From the IMG/VR virus record IMGVR_UViG_3300018421_000245, positions 1 through 22,361 of that record: a stretch of 22,361 bases of DNA; one strand, written 5' to 3'. The notes under the pieces are model-generated. The model worked only from the letters and a program-made list of their open reading frames with translations, was not told the origin of the DNA and did no database searches. Shown here one piece after another: positions 3,897 to 21,474 of this stretch. Origin of the DNA: a virus. A program made the position numbers and the translations under genes. How positions within the stretch are numbered: position 1 is the stretch's first letter; each line of letters begins with the position of its first letter.

Positions 3897-4559
3897 TTAC
3901 CTCTCATAATAAAAGTTAGTATTTGCGCTGACGACAATCCTATCCTCTTTACCTGCATAAGGTGCCGCGTCATGCGGTATCCACCCCGGAAATAGTATTA
4001 AATCTCCTTCAGTCGGAGGCTTAGTATATGAATAGTGTTGCTCAAACCACTCAGCGCCATCATCTTTAGTACCTTGGTGTGTGTTAAAATTAAACCAAGT
4101 ATTAGTACCATTCATACTATCTAGATCACATTCGCTAGATTGAGCATAAAAAATTGCACCCCAACTTGTTCCAGGATGAACGTGTGTAAGGTGATATCCT
4201 TTGTCATTTGTAATATGGTACCAGCTTTCTCTAATTGTACAAGACATTGGACGTTTAGGTTGCCAATATCCTGTGCTAGGAAATCCTTGTGTAACTAAAT
4301 GCGACAAAGACTGCTCAAAGAATTTTTTTAATTTATGAATTGCAGGATTGTCTATATTTAGAAAATTAAAATCACTTTCTTTCAAATTAGATTTCAAATG
4401 TGTAGCAACACCGCTGTCTACGTCACGTTTTTGTTTTTCAGCTTCTTTATAAATTGTATCTACAAGTTGATTTTTATCTTGTTTGTAATTTTCATACTTA
4501 TAGTGAAAAACGAATGTAGGCCAAAGTATGTTATATGTGTCAAACTGTGCAATATTCAC
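3897..4559 (-). CDS. putative 2OG-Fe(II) oxygenase (TIGR02466-like)
   Basis: Predicted non-haem iron dioxygenase using 2-oxoglutarate; the substrate is unknown. The double-stranded beta-helix motifs are visible. The first metal motif is around [17 protein letters not shown] (H123, H126, H128). The distal motif is [19 protein letters not shown] with H196, followed by R207, which would bind 2-oxoglutarate. The first site reads HxH rather than the usual HxD/E, so the exact ligands are uncertain. The length (220 aa) fits the family. The start is GTG at 4559, overlapping the clamp-loader TAG by 1 bp with only a weak ribosome site, so translation probably depends on coupling. Its place between replication and ferredoxin genes does not define a target. 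Confidence 0.8.
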
Positions 4560-5464
4560 TATAGTCTCGCTAATCTTATCAGTGTTGCCGCAAGATTAAT
4601 TTCAGGATCTACAACTAATGTATGATCTACCATACCTTGCTTAATAATTAGCACTGCTTGGTCTGGATCTTTAAATAATTCGATGTTGTCATACATCCAA
4701 CGATAGACTTCTTCCATTTCCTCTGGACGAATAGCACCACATAGTAATTTACGTGCTTCTTGAATCTTGCCTGCCTTAAACAGTTCGACCATATCAAGTT
4801 TCCAATCGCTTTCGCCTGTGTCACCTTCATTGGGTTTGTTTAGCACACCATCAACTGAATTCATTTGTACAGTGTTGATACATTTTCTTAAATCTGGGTA
4901 GGTTGCTTTGACATACGTGTCCAATGTATCAAGGTCCGGGTTAACTCCCTCCGTAATAAGTATTTCCGCGACTCTCGCAGTAAACTCTGTCTGGTCGATT
5001 TTGGCAATATGGAAACCTTGGCACCTGCTGTGAATAGCTGGTATAATACGGTTTGGATAGTTACACGTGAGTATAAAACGTGCAGTTGTATGATATTCTT
5101 CCATAACACCGCGCAATGCCGCTTGTGCGTTTGGAGATAAGTAATCAGCCTCATCTAGTAGTACCACTTTAAAGTCGCCAAATGGAATCATTTGTACGAA
5201 GTTTACAATTTTATCACGAACATCATCTACTGAGTTTGTTCGTGATGCGTTAATTTCTAATATGTCTAGATCATTTACTTCAAGCTCGTTAAATAGTAAC
5301 TTAGCAAGAGTAGTTTTACCAATCCCAGCATTGCCACTAAAAAGCAAGTGCGGAATAGTTTTATCTTTGATCCAAGTTTTAACTTGTTGTTTTTGTGCGT
5401 CATCTCTAAATACATATCCATCTACCGTCTTAGGACGATACTTTTCTACCCATAATTCTTTCAA
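4559..5464 (-). CDS. 44: sliding-clamp-loader ATPase subunit (T4 gp44-like)
   Basis: AAA+ ATPase that opens and loads the DNA polymerase clamp. Starting with WVEKYRPKTVD, it shows Walker A GNAGIGKT (44-51), Walker B VVLLDEAD (100-107), sensor-1 region TCNYPNRI (133-140) and the SRC arginine-finger motif (146-148), all hallmarks of RFC small subunits and gp44. The length is 301 aa, against about 319 in T4. The start is TTG at 5464, supported by AGGAG exactly 7 nt upstream and by homology beginning at once; it overlaps the DexA TGA by 3 bp. The partners expected in T4 order (gp45 clamp, gp62, RegA) are not beside it, so replication genes are rearranged relative to T4. Confidence 0.93.
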   Translation of the reverse strand: MKELWVEKYRPKTVDGYVFRDDAQKQQVKTWIKDKTIPHLLFSGNAGIGKTTLAKLLFNELEVNDLDILEINASRTNSVDDVRDKIVNFVQMIPFGDFKVVLLDEADYLSPNAQAALRGVMEEYHTTARFILTCNYPNRIIPAIHSRCQGFHIAKIDQTEFTARVAEILITEGVNPDLDTLDTYVKATYPDLRKCINTVQMNSVDGVLNKPNEGDTGESDWKLDMVELFKAGKIQEARKLLCGAIRPEEMEEVYRWMYDNIELFKDPDQAVLIIKQGMVDHTLVVDPEINLAATLIRLARL

Positions 5465-5997
5465 CGTGTTACTCCTAGTTCTTTATATGCCATTTGTATT
5501 GCCTTTGATTGATAGTATGCATCTGCCAGTGCATTGTGCAAATCGTTTTGGATCTTCTTGCGAGGATCTTCCTTACATACACTAAACAGTGTGCGACTAT
5601 CACGTACTTGCCAGAAGTTGTATGGAATAGGTTTGCCTAAACTACGATACATGTCTTCAATAATTGTGTAGTCAAAGCCATAACCTTGCCCCCATAGTAC
5701 ATCTACACCAACAACAAACTTATTAATTTTACTTAGTGCTTCTTCTACAGTAATAGCACCTTTTTGGTCAAACGCTTCTTCCATAATCTTTGGATCTTGT
5801 TTGCTCCACCATTCAATAGTATCATCACTTGCTGTACGACCCAATTGATCTTGGTCATCGATAGAAATTTTAAAATACAACTCGTTGTAAGGCTCTGAAT
5901 TGTCAAACGGATTAAATTTTACAGCGCCTAAACTTAGTACTGTAGACTGCGGCCGTGTGTCAATTGTTTCTAAATCTATTGTTGCATGTATAGCCAA
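5461..5997 (-). CDS. dexA: DexA-like 3'-5' exonuclease (DEDDh)
   Basis: Exonuclease of the DnaQ/RNase T superfamily, resembling T4 exonuclease A. All four acidic positions are visible: D8 and E10 in IDLET, D109 in GYGFDY, and the ExoIII motif with H154 and D159 in HNALADA. A Trp-rich IEWWSKQDP (61-69) also fits DexA relatives. The length is 178 aa, against about 227 in T4, so it is a compact form. The start is TTG at 5997: AGGAG lies 7 nt upstream and no in-frame ATG gives a better beginning. It is the first gene after a near-consensus sigma70 promoter and leads the operon down to the dCMP deaminase. A likely role is degradation of host DNA or trimming of replication intermediates. Confidence 0.9.
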   Translation of the reverse strand: MAIHATIDLETIDTRPQSTVLSLGAVKFNPFDNSEPYNELYFKISIDDQDQLGRTASDDTIEWWSKQDPKIMEEAFDQKGAITVEEALSKINKFVVGVDVLWGQGYGFDYTIIEDMYRSLGKPIPYNFWQVRDSRTLFSVCKEDPRKKIQNDLHNALADAYYQSKAIQMAYKELGVTR

Positions 5998-6003
5998 AAG
6001 AAA

Positions 6004-6051
6004 ACTCCTATCAATTTATACATGTATTATAACGTAAAAACTGATAGGAGT
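6004..6051. repeat. 10-bp inverted repeat around the dexA promoter
   Basis: ACTCCTATCA at 6004-6013 is the exact reverse complement of TGATAGGAGT at 6042-6051, with 28 bp between. One arm overlaps the -35 box, the other contains the dexA ribosome site, and the -10 box lies in the loop. It may be an operator pair or a leader element. The loop is too long for a normal terminator. Confidence 0.6.
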
Positions 6052-6054
6052 CAA
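6026..6054 (-). promoter_or_regulatory. sigma70-type promoter of the dexA-clamp loader-thyX operon
   Basis: On the minus strand, TTGACT (6054-6049) is followed after exactly 17 bp by TATAAT (6031-6026), one base from the perfect consensus. Transcription would start near 6019, giving a leader of about 22 nt that contains the AGGAG of dexA. This is a host-type early promoter and the clearest one in the window. Confidence 0.8.
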
Positions 6055-6098
6055 GTATTATTTTTTAGGAATTGTCCAAAGATTAATTGGAGGTAATA

Positions 6099-6461
6099 CT
6101 AGTTCTGGCCAATGAAAGGTGCTAGTTCTGGTGCTTTCCAGCCTTCCGGCTTCAATACCTTGCCATCTTCGCGTTTGAGTACTTTGCCTGTGTCTGGATC
6201 GATCTTCGCAAAGTTTGTGTCCATTACTTCTTTCCATGCACCTTCTCCGTCAAATCCACCTGCTCTGATAGCACCCATAGTAACAACAAGAATATCGATA
6301 AGTGCATCTAGTTGTTCTACACGATCGTTGTCTTCTACTGCATCTGCAAGTTCATGAAACTCTTCTTCAATAAGACCGAGATACATTTTGTAGTTTGCTT
6401 CATTAGGCTCTTGATCACACGCCGAGCCAAAGCGTTCAATATCTTTAAATGGGTTTGTCAT
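6099..6461 (-). CDS. mazG: MazG-like nucleotide pyrophosphohydrolase
   Basis: Member of the all-alpha NTP pyrophosphohydrolase (MazG/HisE) superfamily, which hydrolyses nucleotides to monophosphates. The metal-binding signature is present: EEEFHEL at 32-38 (first acidic cluster) and LDALIDILVV at 51-60, with D52 and D56. The C-terminal part with repeated GKVLK motifs and GWKAPEL matches phage versions. The length (120 aa) is a single domain. In marine phages MazG has been proposed to alter the (p)ppGpp or dNTP pool; the actual substrate cannot be read from the sequence. The ATG at 6461 has GAGG upstream. It follows the co-chaperonin gene by 9 bp and ends 101 bp before the dexA start. Confidence 0.9.
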   Translation of the reverse strand: MTNPFKDIERFGSACDQEPNEANYKMYLGLIEEEFHELADAVEDNDRVEQLDALIDILVVTMGAIRAGGFDGEGAWKEVMDTNFAKIDPDTGKVLKREDGKVLKPEGWKAPELAPFIGQN

Positions 6462-13218: not shown

Positions 13219-16200
13219 TTATACTCTTCCTACGACTATTTCAATTATTTCCTTGCCGTCTGTATCTTTAGACTCAAGGGCCTTACCTATTACTGTACCA
13301 TATGTTGGATTGTTATTAACTACTGCATATCCTGGTATAGCACTGGTAACTAGTAAATCACCTTTTTGTACTTTACCTAGTACCTTACAAGGTACACGAC
13401 CTTGTAATGCCACTGCTACAGGATTATCAGCTTCTAGTTCACTGTTCATCAAATATGCAGGATTAGTTGAAACAACACCTGCCACTCTGTGATCGAGTGT
13501 TCTATCAGTAACTGTTACTTCTTTGTCACCGCCAAATACTACAACTGTTCCTGGTTCGTATGCATCGTCTGCACTATAGTTTTCTGCTAAGTCAGCATAT
13601 CTTGCAGTTTGAGCTGTACCTACAACTAAATCAATGTATGCTGTTTGCCAACGGTTACTGTTACCGCCTAGGTTACGTGTGCTATTACCGTCTGGTAACA
13701 CGTTTGTACCTACTCTACCGTTAGTACCAAATTCTAATGAACCGTTAATAGTAAATGTGTCAGTACTTGCATTAGCAAATATAAAGTCACCATTTACAGT
13801 AAGATCTTTGTCCATTACAACATTTTCTTTTGCTGTAATAGTTGTACCATTTATAACAAGTGTTTCAGTGCCTCCGTTTACAAAAACAGTTGTATTCGCG
13901 CCTTCGCTTGTATAACCATGTCCGTCACCAAGGCCAATACCTGTAGTTTCACTTGATAGTTCATCTGCTTCTGTTAATGCTTCTATAAAGTTTGTGTAAA
14001 CCCAATCGCCTGCAACAAATCCTTCGGCAGCAAAATCACTACCGGATTGAGCATTACTTTCTGTAACACCTGTTTCGCCAGCATCTACACTACCAGGAAA
14101 TTTTACAACTAAACTAGCAGAACTGTTTCCTACTGCTGTTATAATGTCTGCACCGCCTGGTGTTTTTAATTTTGTAGTTTGTGCGTCTACAGTAACAATA
14201 TCAATTCCAGAAATTTGATAACCAGTTGCATTTAATCTACCGGTGTTAGTTCTACGTGCAATACTATTAGTATCTGTACTAATCGAAATGTTAGTTTTAG
14301 AATAAATTCTTCCACCATCTGCAAGGTCAATTGTAATAAGAGCATCTCCAACATCTGCAAAGTCTGCTGTTGTTGAAGTTACTAGGACTTCTGTACCTAT
14401 ACCAGTATCAGGATCGACTGTATCTTCTTCATATAGGGGATCAAACCCGCCGCCGGTGTTAATCTCTAAAAAGTCAGTCTGACTAATTGTATCAAAAGGT
14501 CCATTTACAACGGCTGTAACATAAATGACATCTTTGTTTTCAATAGTTTGGCGCACGGTTGCCTCTGCACCACTACCTGGCTGTCTAATTACATCACCTG
14601 TGCTTACGCTTACTTTTCTATCAAGTTGGACTTTGGTGATAGCCACTGTTGTAATATCGTTCCAATTCGATGCAAAGTCTTTGTCTTGAACTGAATCACC
14701 ATATTTTGCAACGTTGCTAAAACTAATACCTGTTGGTACGCCTGTACCTGTATCTGTTCTACCATACAATTGGTATTGACTAATATTAGCCATTTCTGCA
14801 AACGCAACACCGTTATCTTTTATTCGTACATAGCCATCCTTTGTATCAAAGTTTTCATCACTAAATTTTGCAAGTCCTAAATCTGCTTGTACTTTTGTAT
14901 CTGTACCGTCCCAACCAGTTGTCGCATCATCTTCATCAAACGTATCAGCATTTTGCATTGCTAGTTTGCTTTGTGCAATTTCTGCATCGCTTGCTACATC
15001 TGCATTTGCAACAGTTAGATCTTCAATTTGGAAGTTGTAGGTAGCTTTTCCGCCACTACTTCTATCAACAGTTAGATTTACAACACTATCTACTGCTTCA
15101 GATGCGTTTGCCCATTCGTCAATTGGTCCATCAACTATTGCCGCGTTAGCAGTTTGTCCTGGTTGATCGTATAAAACTTCACCTATTACAAAGTCTAGTC
15201 CTGTTACCATTTCTATTGTAACTTTTTGTAATGGTCCTTCGATTGGATCAGTGATACTAACAATGTCAATAATATTTGCTGTTTTAGTAGCACTTGCTAA
15301 TCCAATTACATCAGATACATTCCATGTTCCGCCTTGTACAGGAGAAACATAAATTATTTTATAACCAGTAGCAACTAAAAGATCATTAGCTTGAGTATTA
15401 TTAATTTCAGTGTTTCTAATATCTTCTATTTGGTCATAGTTTTGATTGTTTTGGTCTACATAATTTTTGTTAGTAGCCGCAGTACCGTCAGTACCTGGAA
15501 GGGCAAGGTTTGTAATTTGGTTAGCACCCATATCAATGTCGCCTTCCATATCGCTACCACCATTCAACGGTAAGAAGCCTGGGCCTATTCTATTTCCGCC
15601 ATTTGCTGGATCTAATATCTGTGATAGAGCCTGTACGTTGTATCCTAATACTCTGTTGATATAGTTACCAACTGCTTTTTCTGTAGGCACTGCTTGTGCA
15701 GAATTATCACTAAATGAGTCATCTGCAGAGAATTCATTAATTGTTACACCACGTTTAAAGCCTAGTGAGTTTGCATTTGTTAGACCAACTTCACCTGCGA
15801 ATTCAATGTCACCTGTTGCCTGGTCAACACTAAAGAATTTACCAACTCTAAAGAAGCCAAATTGGTCTGTTGTTACAAAGAATACCCTGCCCTTTCTACG
15901 TTCCCAAATTTGTGAACTTGTAGCAGTAGGTGCATCAGTATATGCTTCAGCTAATGGTAATTCAGGATCACCTAATAGCACGTTTGGATAGTTACTTGTG
16001 TTAAATCCACCTGTACCAATTTGTGTAAAGTCGTGTCCTGTTGCTCTACACAATGAAATTGCAATAGTAATTTCAGCAGTAGCGCCTGTGTCAAGACCTA
16101 AATTTAGTAGTACCTCATCTGAACCAAACCCACTCTGCAAACCAGTGACAGTAGGCGAGTTTAAATCTCTACCTGCTACATCACTAAAATCTAGTTTAGC

Positions 16201-19200
16201 CCAAGAAAGCGGACTGTATTCATCTGGAACACTGTTTGCACCTAGCGCACCACTTGTACTACCTGTCAATTCGTCTGAAGTATTAAATGTTCCCGAAGCA
16301 TCTATAACATTGATAACACTACCTGCTGTAACATCTTGTAATACAGTTGCAGTTGTTGAACCTTGTGATATTGTTTCGCCTGCAACTACTGTTATATTTC
16401 CGGTTGTAATAATTTTACCTACTGTACTATATTGTGTTGCTCTATGAATTTTTCCATCCCAATGGAAAATCATTCCGCCTGCATAACCTGCATCGCCTGG
16501 TTGTTTGCCCGCAACGTCACGCAACAATCTCGAAATTGTATCTTCATCTACAATGGTTTGTATTGCTAAAGATGTATCACCTTGTGTTGCACCATAGTTT
16601 GCAACAAGTTCATCTGTTTTTGTAAACACTGCTACATAACCAAACCCTGTATCTACATCAGTTAAAATTTGATCTGGGTTTAAATCTTGTGACAAAGAAT
16701 CTTGTTGTGCAAAACTTAAACTTCTGTATGTAATTTCATCACTTTCGTCAAAGTTAATAGCAGTAGAAGGACGAGTCTCTAATCTTTCAGGCTCTGCTAC
16801 GCCATCAAATATCATTGTACTATCTGTTCTAAATTCAATAACAGTGCCGTTCGGTACTGTATCTTGTAAAGTTCCAAAATAGTCTGCAGGTGAAGCATCA
16901 TCTGCTCTAAGGTCAAGTTTATATACACTATTACTATATACTCCGCCTGTTGCAACTTCGTCGCCTGGTTCACCTTCTGTACCATCATTATCTGCATCTG
17001 ACAAGTTGGTAACATTACTTACTCTATAATTTAGAATACCTACGCCTCTTGATGCTGAAGCTATTGCAAATGTTAAATCATCTGCAGGACTTGTACCACC
17101 TAGGTCTGCACCAGAGACTGTTAAAGTTTCTGCTAAAATGTAATCAACACCTGCATTGTTTGGTGTAACACTTGTTGCATCGCCGCTACCATCAATAACA
17201 ATATCAAATGTTGCATTTGTACCGCTGCCGCCGCTTGCACTTACGTTAGTGTAGGTGTTTGCCGCTCTGCCTGCACTTGCCGCACTTATATTAGAAACAC
17301 GTCTTACTTGACCTTCAGGTCCATGATTAATTGTAATTTGACTGTTAATCGTAGGCTTGTACTTTATATCTGTAATTGTAATACTAGGATCTTCTTCTAT
17401 GTTAGGAAAATTAGGAGTAGTATATGCCCTTGCAGGCTGTATCATAGGATTAGTTAGTGTAACTTGGTCTGGAATTTCGTTTGGATCAGCACCTTCAGCT
17501 ACTAGACCAAAGAACCCATAACCATTAGATCCGTTAGTTGAACGAATCTCTGAACCGTTACTTGCATAGTATGCTGCCTGACAGTAGTATGTAAACATAG
17601 ATACCATTTCTGACAAAGCACCGTTGTTAGTAACAAGGCCATAGCCTAGGTCATTTATTTGTGTAAAGTCGTTTCCTAGTATACTTCTATTACCTGCTGT
17701 TTGTAAGAATATTTCTTGCGGCGTACTACCTGTGTAGCCCGTTCCGTTAAGTCCAGAACCAGCGTCTAAGAAAACTGTTACAGTACCTTGTACTTGATCA
17801 TATTGACTAATAGCATTAACCTGATATCGAATACCGTCTAAGTAAAACGGGCAAGGTACTTCTGGCGGCCTAATAAATAGACCTTGACCTGGATCACTTT
17901 CAAGTTCGAGTTGGAATGGTGTAACAGCATTTGTAATTCTAACAGGAATGTTACCTACGAATGCATCAACATACATTCCTCCTCTAAATCTCTTTTCATT
18001 GTCACTTTTACTAAATGATGAACCAGTTTGGATATATGGAGATTTAGTAAGAATTTGTCCTTCTGGATCAAGCACACACATAAAGCCACCGTGTCCTTGA
18101 ACTGTAACATTACGCACAATAGTAGCATCACTCATCGTAAATACGTCTACACCTTGTGCATCGTTTGACAATGGAGGATTGTAATCATCATTAAATGCGT
18201 AGTTAACTAAATTAATTAAACTGTTAACAAGTGTGTCAGTTCCTGTTTCTCCTATGCCTGCGCTGGTATCAGGTTGTACATTTAAAATATTATTGACGTT
18301 AGGTGAAGTTCCTGCTAATAACTGTACAGCTAAAACAGAGATCTGATTGATTGCTTGAGCAGTTTGTGTTTCTTGTCCTGCAACTGCACCAATGTAATAG
18401 TTTCCTTGTGCTTCAAGAGTAAACTCTGTGCCTCCTAGTGTAAGGTCTTTAATCAATGCATCAACAATTAATCCAACATCTCTATAACATTTGTCTCTAT
18501 CGTATGTAAATCCAAACCAAATACTTCCTGTAGCATTGTTTATATTTGCATCGTTTACATTGTCGTCAATCCACCATGTAACTTCTTCTTGTATAAATTC
18601 TTTGTTCTTTCTAAGAACACTTGCGGCAATTAAATAATCACCTACGTTAGTAGGAATAATACCTAAATCTTTTTCTGCAAAAGGATTTCTTAAATAATGT
18701 CTACCAAAGTATCCTTGTACTTGATTGGTTTGGTTAACGAATGCCGATACTTCGTTCTTTACTACATAAAAAGTTTGATCAGAATCGGTTAAAGCAAATG
18801 TTGCACCACCTTGTGTTTCACTTACTGTAAATTCTGTTGCACTGTCAATTGATTTAATAAAATAGACTGTGCTTCTTTGGACACCGCCATACAAACTATT
18901 ACCAACAAATCTTACAGTGTCATCAACATTCATCCATGATGTTGTATCACAAATAAATTGATCATTAGCAGTTGAGGTAGCAGTAATTGTAGAATGCTTC
19001 TTTTCTAATAATTCAATATCATCAAATTCTAAATCTCTAAAGAAGTACATATCTGACCAAACAGATTGTGACAGTCTGCGCTTAGGTCTAATAATTACAC
19101 GTCTAAATTCGTCACCTTTAAGTGACACATTATTGGCTAGTTTAATTGGATAGTCTTCTTCGTATGTGCCTGACTCTACAAATATAGTAACTTGTTTAGT

Positions 19201-21474
19201 TTTAACAAAGTTACCGTACTCTACTTCTTCTCCTACTTCAAAATCTTTACCATTAAGTTGGATTAGTTGGAAAGTATCTGGATTGTTAAAGTCTGGTGTA
19301 CTTTCAGTGCCGTCATTGTTAGTAAGTGTTACAATTCTTCCCTTAGCGCCTGATCTTTTACCTACTAATATTTTTCCAGGTAGTGTATCAGTGTTGTCTG
19401 GATTACCTTGGTCAATAAAAGTTCTAGCACCGTTGTCCATTACAAGTTTGTAAGTACTACCATAGATAACATTAGCACCTGCACTAACACCGTTTTGAAT
19501 AATATTTAAAATAAGATCAAATTTTGTACCTATTGCACTTCTAGCCGCAGTGTCTGCATCAGGCTGATCAAAAGTTTGTAGAACTTTGTTACTGTCAAAT
19601 GCTTCTAATCTAGGTTGATATACTACACCCATTCTTCCGCCGGTTGTGTAGTCTGTGTATGCACTTATATCCCAAAGTGTTAAAAGATCTTGATCCTCAT
19701 AAAGTTCAAATACACTATCACTTAACACTCTTATATACGCAGTTTGATCTTCTATTTCAATCATACCGCCCATGTCTTTGAATATAACCTGTTCTCCGTC
19801 AACTAAACCGTGATCAGGTGATGTTGTTACTCTAGCTCTATTTCCGTCAACACTAATACTAACAACATTTTTTTCTCTAAATAATTTATTTTGTAGGATA
19901 GCATCTACCATTTGCTTTGCAATATCTATTGCATCTACAGTTTCTGTTAACTGTTGTCCTATAGCATATCTACCACTAGAATTACTGTAATACCTTTCGC
20001 CTGCTTCTCTGGTTAAAAAGTTTGCGTTTAATCCACGATTTATATCAAACGATACAGCATCTAAAATTAAACCAGTATCTCTTTCACATGTTTCAATGTC
20101 GTAAATAAAATCAGGATACGTAAATTTTAGATAGCCTGATACTTCTTTTACAACATATTCTCTGTTTAATTGTATAAGAGCCTTTGTTTGTTCATATACA
20201 GGAACATCAACATCAGCAGTAATTACTGTAGACGTACTGTCTCCTGCATCTTTAGTAATTGTTTGGAAATATGGTCCTGGTTCTGCAGGACTTGTTTCGA
20301 TAATTTCGTAAGCTCTTCTAGCCGCGGCATTAATAGTACGGAATGCATAGTTTAGTGCTGACCCTTCTCTTCCTGGAGGCACACCAATCATTCTGTCATC
20401 ACCATTGGTGCTAACAAAAAGGTTTACAGTTGATGAATAACCGCTTTGGTCTACATAAAATTTAGAAGCGGCTTGTAAATCATCTGCTCCGTTAACAACT
20501 CCAAAACCTTTTAGGTCACCTGGGTGATCGGACAGTGTAAGAACGCCGTCCATGGTATCGCCTTGTCTGCGTACAATAGCATCTCTAGGCATTGCAACAT
20601 CACTTAAGAAGTTTCCTTCTAGTGTTTCGTCATAACCTGCATCAACCATTCTGTGTACATCGTCATTTTCGATAACACCTTGAACAAATATTTTTGTTTG
20701 TTCAGCAGTAAGCGTATCAACAACTTGTGCTTTTTCGGCTGTATCAAAAACTGCTAACTGATCGTCTGTAATATAGCGTAGAAAATAAGTGTCGCCTGAT
20801 GTTAAATTATTAGGATCATTATATATTGTACTAAAAACAAAAGGTATACCATTGATACTGGTATCATATCCGTGATTTAAAACTTCGATATTACCATTGA
20901 TGTATCTGTTTATGTCTAGCAAATAGGAATTTGTATTTGCTGGTTCACCTGCAACACGTATCGGCAAGCCTGAACTAACATAGCGTCTATCTGCAAATCC
21001 TTTTGTAATAACTAAATCATCTATACTTAAATCTGTATTGTGTCTTTCATTAAATAAATCAACAGCCGCTTGTGATACTGATACATTACCTATTGCATTT
21101 CCGTTAACATTTAACGGACCACCTAGTGCAGGTTTTAAGTCATCTGAAAGTTTTGTAAATGCTGTTGAAACAACAAGTTTGCCAGCTTGTGTATATGTAA
21201 ATGTAATAGTGTCAACTTCGTTAGGATCTAATGCACTATTAGAAGCAAGTTCTACAAGATTTATATTGGAGCCATCATCACTTACTAGCGGAATTGTGTT
21301 TGGTAATAGTTGGTCTGGAGTATCTGCAAGACTAGTAAATGCTATTGCACCTTCTTGACCGAATACAGCGTAAATCTCTGTAAAGTTTTCGTTTACCTTA
21401 CGAAACGATTCTCTAATACTATCACCGGTAGCATCATTGCCTTCTACACCGATATTAATATCTTGTCTTGCCAT
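13219..21474 (-). CDS. giant modular tail-fibre/virion protein, 2751 aa
   Basis: Probable long tail fibre or adhesin. The N-terminal 35 residues carry the anchor motif NDATGDSIRESFRKVNENF. T4/T7-style fibre repeats appear near 117-130 (GGPLNVNGNAIGNV), 298-341 (GDTMDGVLTL...KFYVDQ) and 1968-1995 (GGSDMEGDIDMGANQITNL). A repeated module around YD-x4-C-x-RD-x-GLI occurs at about 455-483 and 988-1013. A pectate-lyase-like strand (IFVESGTYEEDYPIKLANN, about 760-780) suggests a beta-helix. The C-terminus (about 2580-2751) has a NLGGNSNRWQTAYIDLVV lead-in, then ADLAENY...VVFGG...VAGVVSTNPAYLM, as in fibre tip or self-processing domains; cleavage is not shown. The ATG at 21474 has GGAG upstream. There is no frameshift across 8.3 kb. 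Confidence 0.85.
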   Translation of the reverse strand: MARQDINIGVEGNDATGDSIRESFRKVNENFTEIYAVFGQEGAIAFTSLADTPDQLLPNTIPLVSDDGSNINLVELASNSALDPNEVDTITFTYTQAGKLVVSTAFTKLSDDLKPALGGPLNVNGNAIGNVSVSQAAVDLFNERHNTDLSIDDLVITKGFADRRYVSSGLPIRVAGEPANTNSYLLDINRYINGNIEVLNHGYDTSINGIPFVFSTIYNDPNNLTSGDTYFLRYITDDQLAVFDTAEKAQVVDTLTAEQTKIFVQGVIENDDVHRMVDAGYDETLEGNFLSDVAMPRDAIVRRQGDTMDGVLTLSDHPGDLKGFGVVNGADDLQAASKFYVDQSGYSSTVNLFVSTNGDDRMIGVPPGREGSALNYAFRTINAAARRAYEIIETSPAEPGPYFQTITKDAGDSTSTVITADVDVPVYEQTKALIQLNREYVVKEVSGYLKFTYPDFIYDIETCERDTGLILDAVSFDINRGLNANFLTREAGERYYSNSSGRYAIGQQLTETVDAIDIAKQMVDAILQNKLFREKNVVSISVDGNRARVTTSPDHGLVDGEQVIFKDMGGMIEIEDQTAYIRVLSDSVFELYEDQDLLTLWDISAYTDYTTGGRMGVVYQPRLEAFDSNKVLQTFDQPDADTAARSAIGTKFDLILNIIQNGVSAGANVIYGSTYKLVMDNGARTFIDQGNPDNTDTLPGKILVGKRSGAKGRIVTLTNNDGTESTPDFNNPDTFQLIQLNGKDFEVGEEVEYGNFVKTKQVTIFVESGTYEEDYPIKLANNVSLKGDEFRRVIIRPKRRLSQSVWSDMYFFRDLEFDDIELLEKKHSTITATSTANDQFICDTTSWMNVDDTVRFVGNSLYGGVQRSTVYFIKSIDSATEFTVSETQGGATFALTDSDQTFYVVKNEVSAFVNQTNQVQGYFGRHYLRNPFAEKDLGIIPTNVGDYLIAASVLRKNKEFIQEEVTWWIDDNVNDANINNATGSIWFGFTYDRDKCYRDVGLIVDALIKDLTLGGTEFTLEAQGNYYIGAVAGQETQTAQAINQISVLAVQLLAGTSPNVNNILNVQPDTSAGIGETGTDTLVNSLINLVNYAFNDDYNPPLSNDAQGVDVFTMSDATIVRNVTVQGHGGFMCVLDPEGQILTKSPYIQTGSSFSKSDNEKRFRGGMYVDAFVGNIPVRITNAVTPFQLELESDPGQGLFIRPPEVPCPFYLDGIRYQVNAISQYDQVQGTVTVFLDAGSGLNGTGYTGSTPQEIFLQTAGNRSILGNDFTQINDLGYGLVTNNGALSEMVSMFTYYCQAAYYASNGSEIRSTNGSNGYGFFGLVAEGADPNEIPDQVTLTNPMIQPARAYTTPNFPNIEEDPSITITDIKYKPTINSQITINHGPEGQVRRVSNISAASAGRAANTYTNVSASGGSGTNATFDIVIDGSGDATSVTPNNAGVDYILAETLTVSGADLGGTSPADDLTFAIASASRGVGILNYRVSNVTNLSDADNDGTEGEPGDEVATGGVYSNSVYKLDLRADDASPADYFGTLQDTVPNGTVIEFRTDSTMIFDGVAEPERLETRPSTAINFDESDEITYRSLSFAQQDSLSQDLNPDQILTDVDTGFGYVAVFTKTDELVANYGATQGDTSLAIQTIVDEDTISRLLRDVAGKQPGDAGYAGGMIFHWDGKIHRATQYSTVGKIITTGNITVVAGETISQGSTTATVLQDVTAGSVINVIDASGTFNTSDELTGSTSGALGANSVPDEYSPLSWAKLDFSDVAGRDLNSPTVTGLQSGFGSDEVLLNLGLDTGATAEITIAISLCRATGHDFTQIGTGGFNTSNYPNVLLGDPELPLAEAYTDAPTATSSQIWERRKGRVFFVTTDQFGFFRVGKFFSVDQATGDIEFAGEVGLTNANSLGFKRGVTINEFSADDSFSDNSAQAVPTEKAVGNYINRVLGYNVQALSQILDPANGGNRIGPGFLPLNGGSDMEGDIDMGANQITNLALPGTDGTAATNKNYVDQNNQNYDQIEDIRNTEINNTQANDLLVATGYKIIYVSPVQGGTWNVSDVIGLASATKTANIIDIVSITDPIEGPLQKVTIEMVTGLDFVIGEVLYDQPGQTANAAIVDGPIDEWANASEAVDSVVNLTVDRSSGGKATYNFQIEDLTVANADVASDAEIAQSKLAMQNADTFDEDDATTGWDGTDTKVQADLGLAKFSDENFDTKDGYVRIKDNGVAFAEMANISQYQLYGRTDTGTGVPTGISFSNVAKYGDSVQDKDFASNWNDITTVAITKVQLDRKVSVSTGDVIRQPGSGAEATVRQTIENKDVIYVTAVVNGPFDTISQTDFLEINTGGGFDPLYEEDTVDPDTGIGTEVLVTSTTADFADVGDALITIDLADGGRIYSKTNISISTDTNSIARRTNTGRLNATGYQISGIDIVTVDAQTTKLKTPGGADIITAVGNSSASLVVKFPGSVDAGETGVTESNAQSGSDFAAEGFVAGDWVYTNFIEALTEADELSSETTGIGLGDGHGYTSEGANTTVFVNGGTETLVINGTTITAKENVVMDKDLTVNGDFIFANASTDTFTINGSLEFGTNGRVGTNVLPDGNSTRNLGGNSNRWQTAYIDLVVGTAQTARYADLAENYSADDAYEPGTVVVFGGDKEVTVTDRTLDHRVAGVVSTNPAYLMNSELEADNPVAVALQGRVPCKVLGKVQKGDLLVTSAIPGYAVVNNNPTYGTVIGKALESKDTDGKEIIEIVVGRV

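Follow-up and report, generated by a model that had tools for sequence, protein, structure and literature searches.

The promoter of a DexA-like exonuclease gene in an uncultured virus is probably part of a composite punctuation element, in which a sigma70-type promoter lies inside an intrinsic terminator and the 3' arm of that terminator doubles as the Shine-Dalgarno (SD) sequence of the gene. Computation revealed a hairpin in the read-through RNA, covariation indicating selection on that hairpin, burial of the SD in the read-through RNA alone, and coupling of the hairpin to a U-tract across many sites. Because the hairpin and the directly adjoining U-tract are coupled in this way, we read the structure as a promoter nested in an intrinsic terminator, and the same ~60 bases probably serve to stop transcription, to start it, and to bind ribosomes.

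The window, which is the whole 22,361-nt stretch analyzed (IMG/VR virus record IMGVR_UViG_3300018421_000245), carries the element on its minus strand, with the following features in the order of transcription:

6099..6461, minus strand: MazG-type pyrophosphohydrolase gene, upstream and codirectional (PHROG 671, E 1e-33; Pfam PRA-PH)
6049..6054, minus strand: -35 hexamer TTGACT, whose final bases open the 5' arm of the hairpin
6038..6052, minus strand: 5' arm of the hairpin, which pairs with 6003-6017 and is missing from promoter-started RNA
6051-6034 and 6021-6004, minus strand: arms of the inverted repeat, 18 nt, 16/18 (89%) complementary, 12 nt apart
6026..6031, minus strand: -10 hexamer TATAAT, in the loop or apical part of the hairpin
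6019, minus strand: expected transcription start (A), placed from the promoter ~7 nt past the -10 and between the arms
6003..6017, minus strand: 3' arm of the hairpin, which includes the SD and shows covariation
6005..6009, minus strand: SD AGGAG of the DexA-like gene, with the TTG start 7 nt further on
5996..6004, minus strand: U-tract TTTTCTTTT, which occupies the SD-to-start space and continues into the TTG start codon
5461..5997, minus strand: DexA-like 3'-5' exonuclease gene, 178 aa, TTG start (PHROG 255, E 9e-44; Pfam PF16473, Rv2179c-like, E 4e-36)
4559..5464, minus strand: sliding-clamp loader subunit gene, next downstream of the DexA-like gene (PHROG 168, E 6e-77)

The promoter upstream of the DexA-like gene (TTGACT-17 nt-TATAAT) matches the consensus at 11 of 12 positions, in agreement with a sequence-only reading of this DNA that had described a near-perfect promoter before dexA; 44 nt separate the mazG stop codon from the -35. 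The inverted repeat noted in that reading is real, but its length, given as 10, was understated, since 10 nt is only the perfect core of the 18-nt arms, and the next position in the RNA is a G-U pair. The layout was described correctly, with one arm over the -35 and spacer (the 5' arm spans the end of the -35 plus the spacer), the other over the ribosome site, and the -10 in the loop or apical region. The U-tract was overlooked, as was the recurrence of the element ahead of further genes and in a second group of viruses. In the read-through RNA, the hairpin consists of 15 consecutive pairs and five apical pairs. Its 3' arm ends with AGGAG plus T, with the U-tract TTTTCTTTTG directly 3' of the hairpin, and its base (CTCC/GGAG) is G-C-rich and gives way at once to the U-tract TTTTCTTTT, as is required of an intrinsic-terminator stem.

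The minimum free energy of the read-through RNA was -30.6 kcal/mol for a 129-nt segment (z -5.3; 0 of 200 shuffles) and -24.4 kcal/mol for an 81-nt segment (z -5.5; 0 of 200 shuffles), whereas the RNA starting at 6019 showed no notable structure (z +0.5), as anticipated by the suggestion that the arms would pair only in an RNA started upstream. The predicted accessibility of the SD in the window was 0.000 in the read-through RNA versus 0.603 in the native RNA. A search of the whole window against Rfam gave no match at the gathering score. The motif ACTCCTATCAR, allowing up to two mismatches, occurred 15 times across the window versus 10.6 expected, so it does not represent a dispersed site.

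In the order of minus-strand transcription, the window opens with a 2751-aa protein with a tail-fibre-like end, a baseplate/tail-fibre connector-like protein, and an 838-aa Ig-domain protein, followed by small genes, a DNA-polymerase-related protein, a GroES/head-morphogenesis-like protein, MazG, and the element. The genes after the element encode the DexA-like protein, the clamp loader, a 2OG oxygenase, thymidylate synthase, and dCMP deaminase, and PhoH is encoded on the plus strand. The C-terminal part of the 2751-aa frame (13219-21474, minus strand), which was the part searched, gave tail-fibre-like matches to PHROG 22593 and 19602. The closest named relatives of the clamp loader belong to PA5oct-like Pseudomonas phages (55.6% identity), and Paride (Arenbergviridae) has the same gene order of polymerase-related gene, clamp loader, PhoH, and virion genes. 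No close isolated phage was found with blastn and tblastn, and the company that the sequence keeps suggests a marine origin of the phage.

A dexA protein search provided 36 loci, of which 16, judged by eye, had TTGAC-TATAAT-GGAG and foldable arms directly before dexA. In 12 of the remaining 20 loci, the promoter-hairpin was located one gene further upstream, where it precedes the gene of a 52-56-aa membrane-like protein that abuts dexA, and in eight of the 36 it was not found. A membrane-like protein of 52-63 aa (MKxTPQTAGIGTTGATGIALMILH...) often lies between the element and dexA (e.g., L006:2788-3000 and L049:1383-1596), and one member had no match in Pfam or in the phage collection. The start codon of dexA was TTG in 26 of 30 strong-hairpin cassettes of the promoter-pattern set, and mostly ATG, by eye, at the protein-search loci in which dexA abuts another gene. 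When IMG/VR was scanned with the pattern TTGACTCC-N15-TATAAT-N9..22-GGAGT, long hairpins were present, among the matches listed, before several single genes as well as dexA relatives, the gene for the small membrane-like protein, and a different type of mazG (PHROG 229). Within one PA5oct-like clade, the predicted element design is found before several different genes. A tail protein gene was immediately upstream of the element in L213, and a baseplate-wedge-like protein gene was four genes upstream in L171. A looser promoter pattern matched 16 of 20 long contigs. By eye, 11 of the 16 had a single hairpin cassette each, and no comparable folding was seen at the remaining promoters of these genomes.

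Covariation of the arms was evaluated in three sets of cassettes. The first comprised 37 dexA cassettes (37/37 used), picked by the promoter-plus-GGAG pattern and the gene, with structure ignored; the pattern required TTGAC and TAYAAT, and the constancy of TTGAC in this set follows from that selection. When the 15-pair stem of the window was imposed on this set, 90.3% of 554 cells were paired (75.5% when shuffled), 79 cells were altered on both sides (30.9 when shuffled), and the covariation score was 0.401 (0.146 when shuffled), a value reached in 0 of 500 shuffles and well above the maximum for a slid stem (0.129). RNAalifold recovered the same stem from the 37 dexA cassettes unaided. In the second set (24 small-membrane-protein and 13 mazG cassettes), the score was 0.464 versus 0.198, a value biased upward because non-folding small-protein promoters were omitted (24 of 38 used). 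In the third set, composed of T5-like cassettes (33/33 used), it was 0.349 versus 0.186, with a slid-stem maximum of 0.116. The half of the stem near the loop varied freely with compensation, and the pairs near the SD varied little because the -35 and the SD are constrained and the patterns required both. Since the arms change but stay complementary, the sequences argue for pairing of the arms as the selected property, rather than a repressor recognition sequence.

These compensatory changes are of the kind that the sequence-only reading had proposed to look for in aligned relatives and, together with the predicted inaccessibility of the SD, favor its suggestion that an RNA structure masks the dexA ribosome site in read-through transcripts. 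Its expectation that relatives keeping the promoter would also conserve the arms holds for their complementarity but not for their sequence. We consider a pairing-based block of read-through expression very probable.

The hairpin was tightly coupled to the U-tract. For this comparison, 121 unique sites of 136 were kept, after removal of duplicates and of sites lacking a start codon in the 17 nt downstream, and strong and weak hairpins were separated at -14 kcal/mol, a cut-off set after the energies were known. The eight nucleotides after GGAG contained a mean of 6.07 T in the 74 strong cassettes and 2.83 in the 47 weak ones (P 6e-16). Part of this set came from a pattern requiring the first T; in the protein-fetched loci alone, the values were 5.97 (37 strong) and 3.12 (25 weak; p 2e-8), and in the small-protein family they were 5.30 (23 strong) and 2.40 (15 weak). 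Because the rows include many close relatives, these P values exaggerate the independence of the data, and a tree-based analysis of the association yielded a single supported independent pair. In two scans with the 5' arm unspecified, hairpins of -14 kcal/mol or lower occurred at 28 of 98 unique promoter sites with GGAG+TTTT but at one of 120 with GGAG+AAAA (Fisher 3e-10, among related sequences), and the single GGAG+AAAA hairpin leaves the SD unpaired. Across 1.88 Mb of loci, some of them pattern-fetched, a hairpin plus U-tract surrounded the -10 at 62 of 824 promoter-like sites versus three of 654 in a reversed control. The median predicted SD accessibility of the 74 strong cassettes was 0.0002 in the read-through RNA versus 0.37 in the native RNA, in which it was moderate, exceeding 0.5 in 26% of these cassettes.

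In T5-like viruses, a scan with the 5' arm left free found cassettes of the form TTGACACTCC..TATAAT..GGAGTTTT, located between a DnaB-type helicase gene and a 98-aa gene that is followed by primase and DNA polymerase. The 98-aa product is a basic protein (PHROG 27048), and the nested element occurs at L293:1629-6663 and at 32 other T5-like loci. A scan with no T-tract requirement (TTGACACTC-N14-TATAAT-N10..27-GGAG) returned 76 unique sites. Of these, 33 form a single family (31 strong, with a mean of 6.8 T), and the others are scattered and almost all weak; the number of T after GGAG was 6.4 at the 35 sites with energies of -12 or lower and 3.0 at the other 41. At 28 of the 33 T5-like loci, 8-12 nt separate the upstream stop codon from the -35, and no long upstream frame was found within reach at the remaining five. 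Because the T5-like element is inside a replication cluster, the device is not tied to the boundary between late and early genes. The T5-like arms differ from the PA5oct-like arms, and the same predicted design recurs.

Outside these two groups, a 141-kb contig of another phage type (L127:238-303, minus strand) has a promoter enclosed by a hairpin of 15 pairs, and the 81-aa gene that follows is related to a gene of Methylophilales phage Melnitz. One pattern scan of bacterial genomes found four places in MAG contigs (folds of -11.1, -20.6, -8.1, and -12.6); L272 and L274 combine promoter, hairpin, and T-run (-20.6 and -12.6 kcal/mol), and in L272 the -10 is flanked by arms that pair cleanly over 13 positions. 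In the cyanophages P-RSM4 and Bellamy, mazG overlaps its upstream gene and there is no cassette. No convincing nested element was found in Paride, Melnitz-1, IrmaTschudi, AAS21, or 40 kb of T5, and the candidates in T5, IrmaTschudi, and P-RSM4 had weak promoters and poor folds by eye. On balance, we lean toward the view that at least two unrelated phage lineages independently packed three signals into an element of ~60 bp, which would serve as a general operon-boundary insulator, also for early genes, by ending incoming transcription, silencing it translationally, and restarting it.

The main rival to this reading is a block of translation only, of the kind described for T4 gene e and I-TevI, in which transcription would continue through the hairpin and the T-rich spacer would be incidental or would aid ribosome access. 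It would be sufficient for the burial of the SD and the covariation, and it has a direct precedent in T4 (PMC3014915, PMC2988022). Eight of the 74 strong hairpins, such as L051, are followed by four T or fewer, so pairing can persist without a U-tract. The scores from a terminator formula are likewise borderline: 39 of the 74 strong cassettes scored above zero when the stem was ended at GGAG and 19 with a stricter end, and the window scored +4.9 with the stem ended at GGAG. The element was not listed in a simple terminator scan of the window, and the predicted terminator strength is borderline in many members. However, a translational block does not explain why T rather than A stands at positions 1, 2, 3, and 4 after GGAG (70, 66, 69, and 62 of 74 strong cassettes, respectively), nor why T-richness is absent from the spacers of other GGAG genes in these contigs: none of 289 promoterless GGAG genes had at least six T, compared with 75.7% of the strong cassettes. 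At least five T were present in 66 of the 74 strong cassettes. It also leaves the same coupling in the unrelated T5-like clade unexplained. We regard a block by translation alone as rather unlikely, and real termination as a likely part of the block. Strong promoter-enclosing hairpins with no U-tract after GGAG (L086, L051, L095, and L092) are natural variants that could separate translational block from termination.

The hairpin usually starts within ~30 nt of the upstream stop codon, a position that would also suit a hairpin whose main role is in protecting or processing the 3' end of the mRNA from the upstream gene, as an RNase III site or 3' stabilizer, with the promoter merely overlapping. 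Such a role requires neither an SD in the 3' arm nor a stem ending exactly at the SD, and is very improbable. The upstream gene was codirectional for 71 of 72 strong hairpins and 39 of 46 weak ones, a property that hardly discriminates because 18 of 20 non-hairpin promoters of the same genomes also have a codirectional gene upstream.

The sequence-only reading had also offered a two-site operator, on which a dimeric or looping repressor bound to both arms would shut the promoter. The dyad symmetry flanks the promoter and the arm centers are ~30 bp apart, as such an operator would have it, but the arm sequences diverge widely among relatives while complementarity is kept, and neither the SD overlap nor the U-tract is accounted for. 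At L105:2139-2195, where the -35 is a full TTGACA, the 5' arm (GACTCCTTATTA) is displaced by ~4 nt in the downstream direction, which sets the stretch pairing with the SD apart from the -35. With its arms covarying and no conserved recognition sequence in them, the operator was rejected as very improbable. Least probable of all is chance complementarity of the -35 region and SD inherited by common descent, for although the TTGACT+CC and GGAGT consensus alone gives 5-6 pairs and many rows are related, the stem reaches 13-19 pairs with compensatory changes, TTGAC-TATAAT-GGAG promoters elsewhere in the same genomes do not fold, another clade repeats the design with different arms, and the z value of the window is -5.3.

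Under the nested promoter-terminator reading, a polymerase arriving from mazG, or from the tail genes further up, would copy both arms, and the hairpin would form and cover AGGAG in the read-through RNA. With AGGAG hidden, dexA would not be translated from this RNA, and the hairpin and U-tract would release many of the incoming transcripts at the dexA start codon. Transcription from the nested promoter would start between the arms and produce an RNA lacking the 5' arm, which would therefore form no hairpin and leave the SD free. With read-through silenced and native RNA free, the replication genes would be expressed from their own promoter only, whatever arrives from upstream. We infer that the promoter is active and that transcripts terminate, and we take the purpose of the arrangement to be the decoupling of the replication set from transcription arriving from upstream.

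Hairpin-embedded promoters in T4 prevent the early synthesis of late proteins. Here, the same trick would guard replication genes behind a host-type promoter, apparently with a built-in terminator, in an element that is common in uncultured viruses and would constitute a compact natural insulator part. The sequence rule that it provides, a complement of GGAG in the -35 or spacer and a U-run after GGAG, could mark operon boundaries in phage genomes that go unreported by a simple terminator scan.

Our literature search, judged by titles and abstract openings and covering few subscription papers, found no description of a nested promoter/terminator design. The closest known systems are T4 e, soc, 49, segB, and I-TevI/II/III and Aeh1 mobE, in which a promoter lies within an SD-sequestering hairpin; there, the SD is hidden in the early read-through RNA, and RNA from the late promoter, which lacks the 5' strand, is translated (PMC3014915, PMC2988022). 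As in the gene e type, the hairpin of the window is predicted to sequester the SD in the longer RNA, and its promoter is placed so that RNA starting at the expected position, 6019, omits the 5' arm. Unlike that type, the window has no late T4-type promoter (TATAAATA) but a sigma70-type TTGACT-17-TATAAT. The T4-type genes controlled by hairpins are all late genes lying on early or middle transcripts (PMC2988022), and their promoters are late (or middle), whereas that of the window is of the host sigma70 type and precedes replication genes. The U-tract after the stem, with its probable termination step, is likewise absent from the passages describing the T4-type hairpins (PMC3014915, PMC2988022). 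The element resembles intrinsic (Rho-independent) terminators in its stable stem with a G-C-rich base, followed at once by a U-run and located after an upstream stop codon. It differs from them in its long stem, which beyond the base is rich in A-U, in its borderline scores, and in that its 3' arm is the SD, its U-run is the SD spacer, and its loop and 5' arm are the promoter. Signals are similarly tightly packed at phage T5 promoter P-G25, where a terminator and a promoter are annotated side by side; in the element of the window, however, all three signals occupy the same bases.
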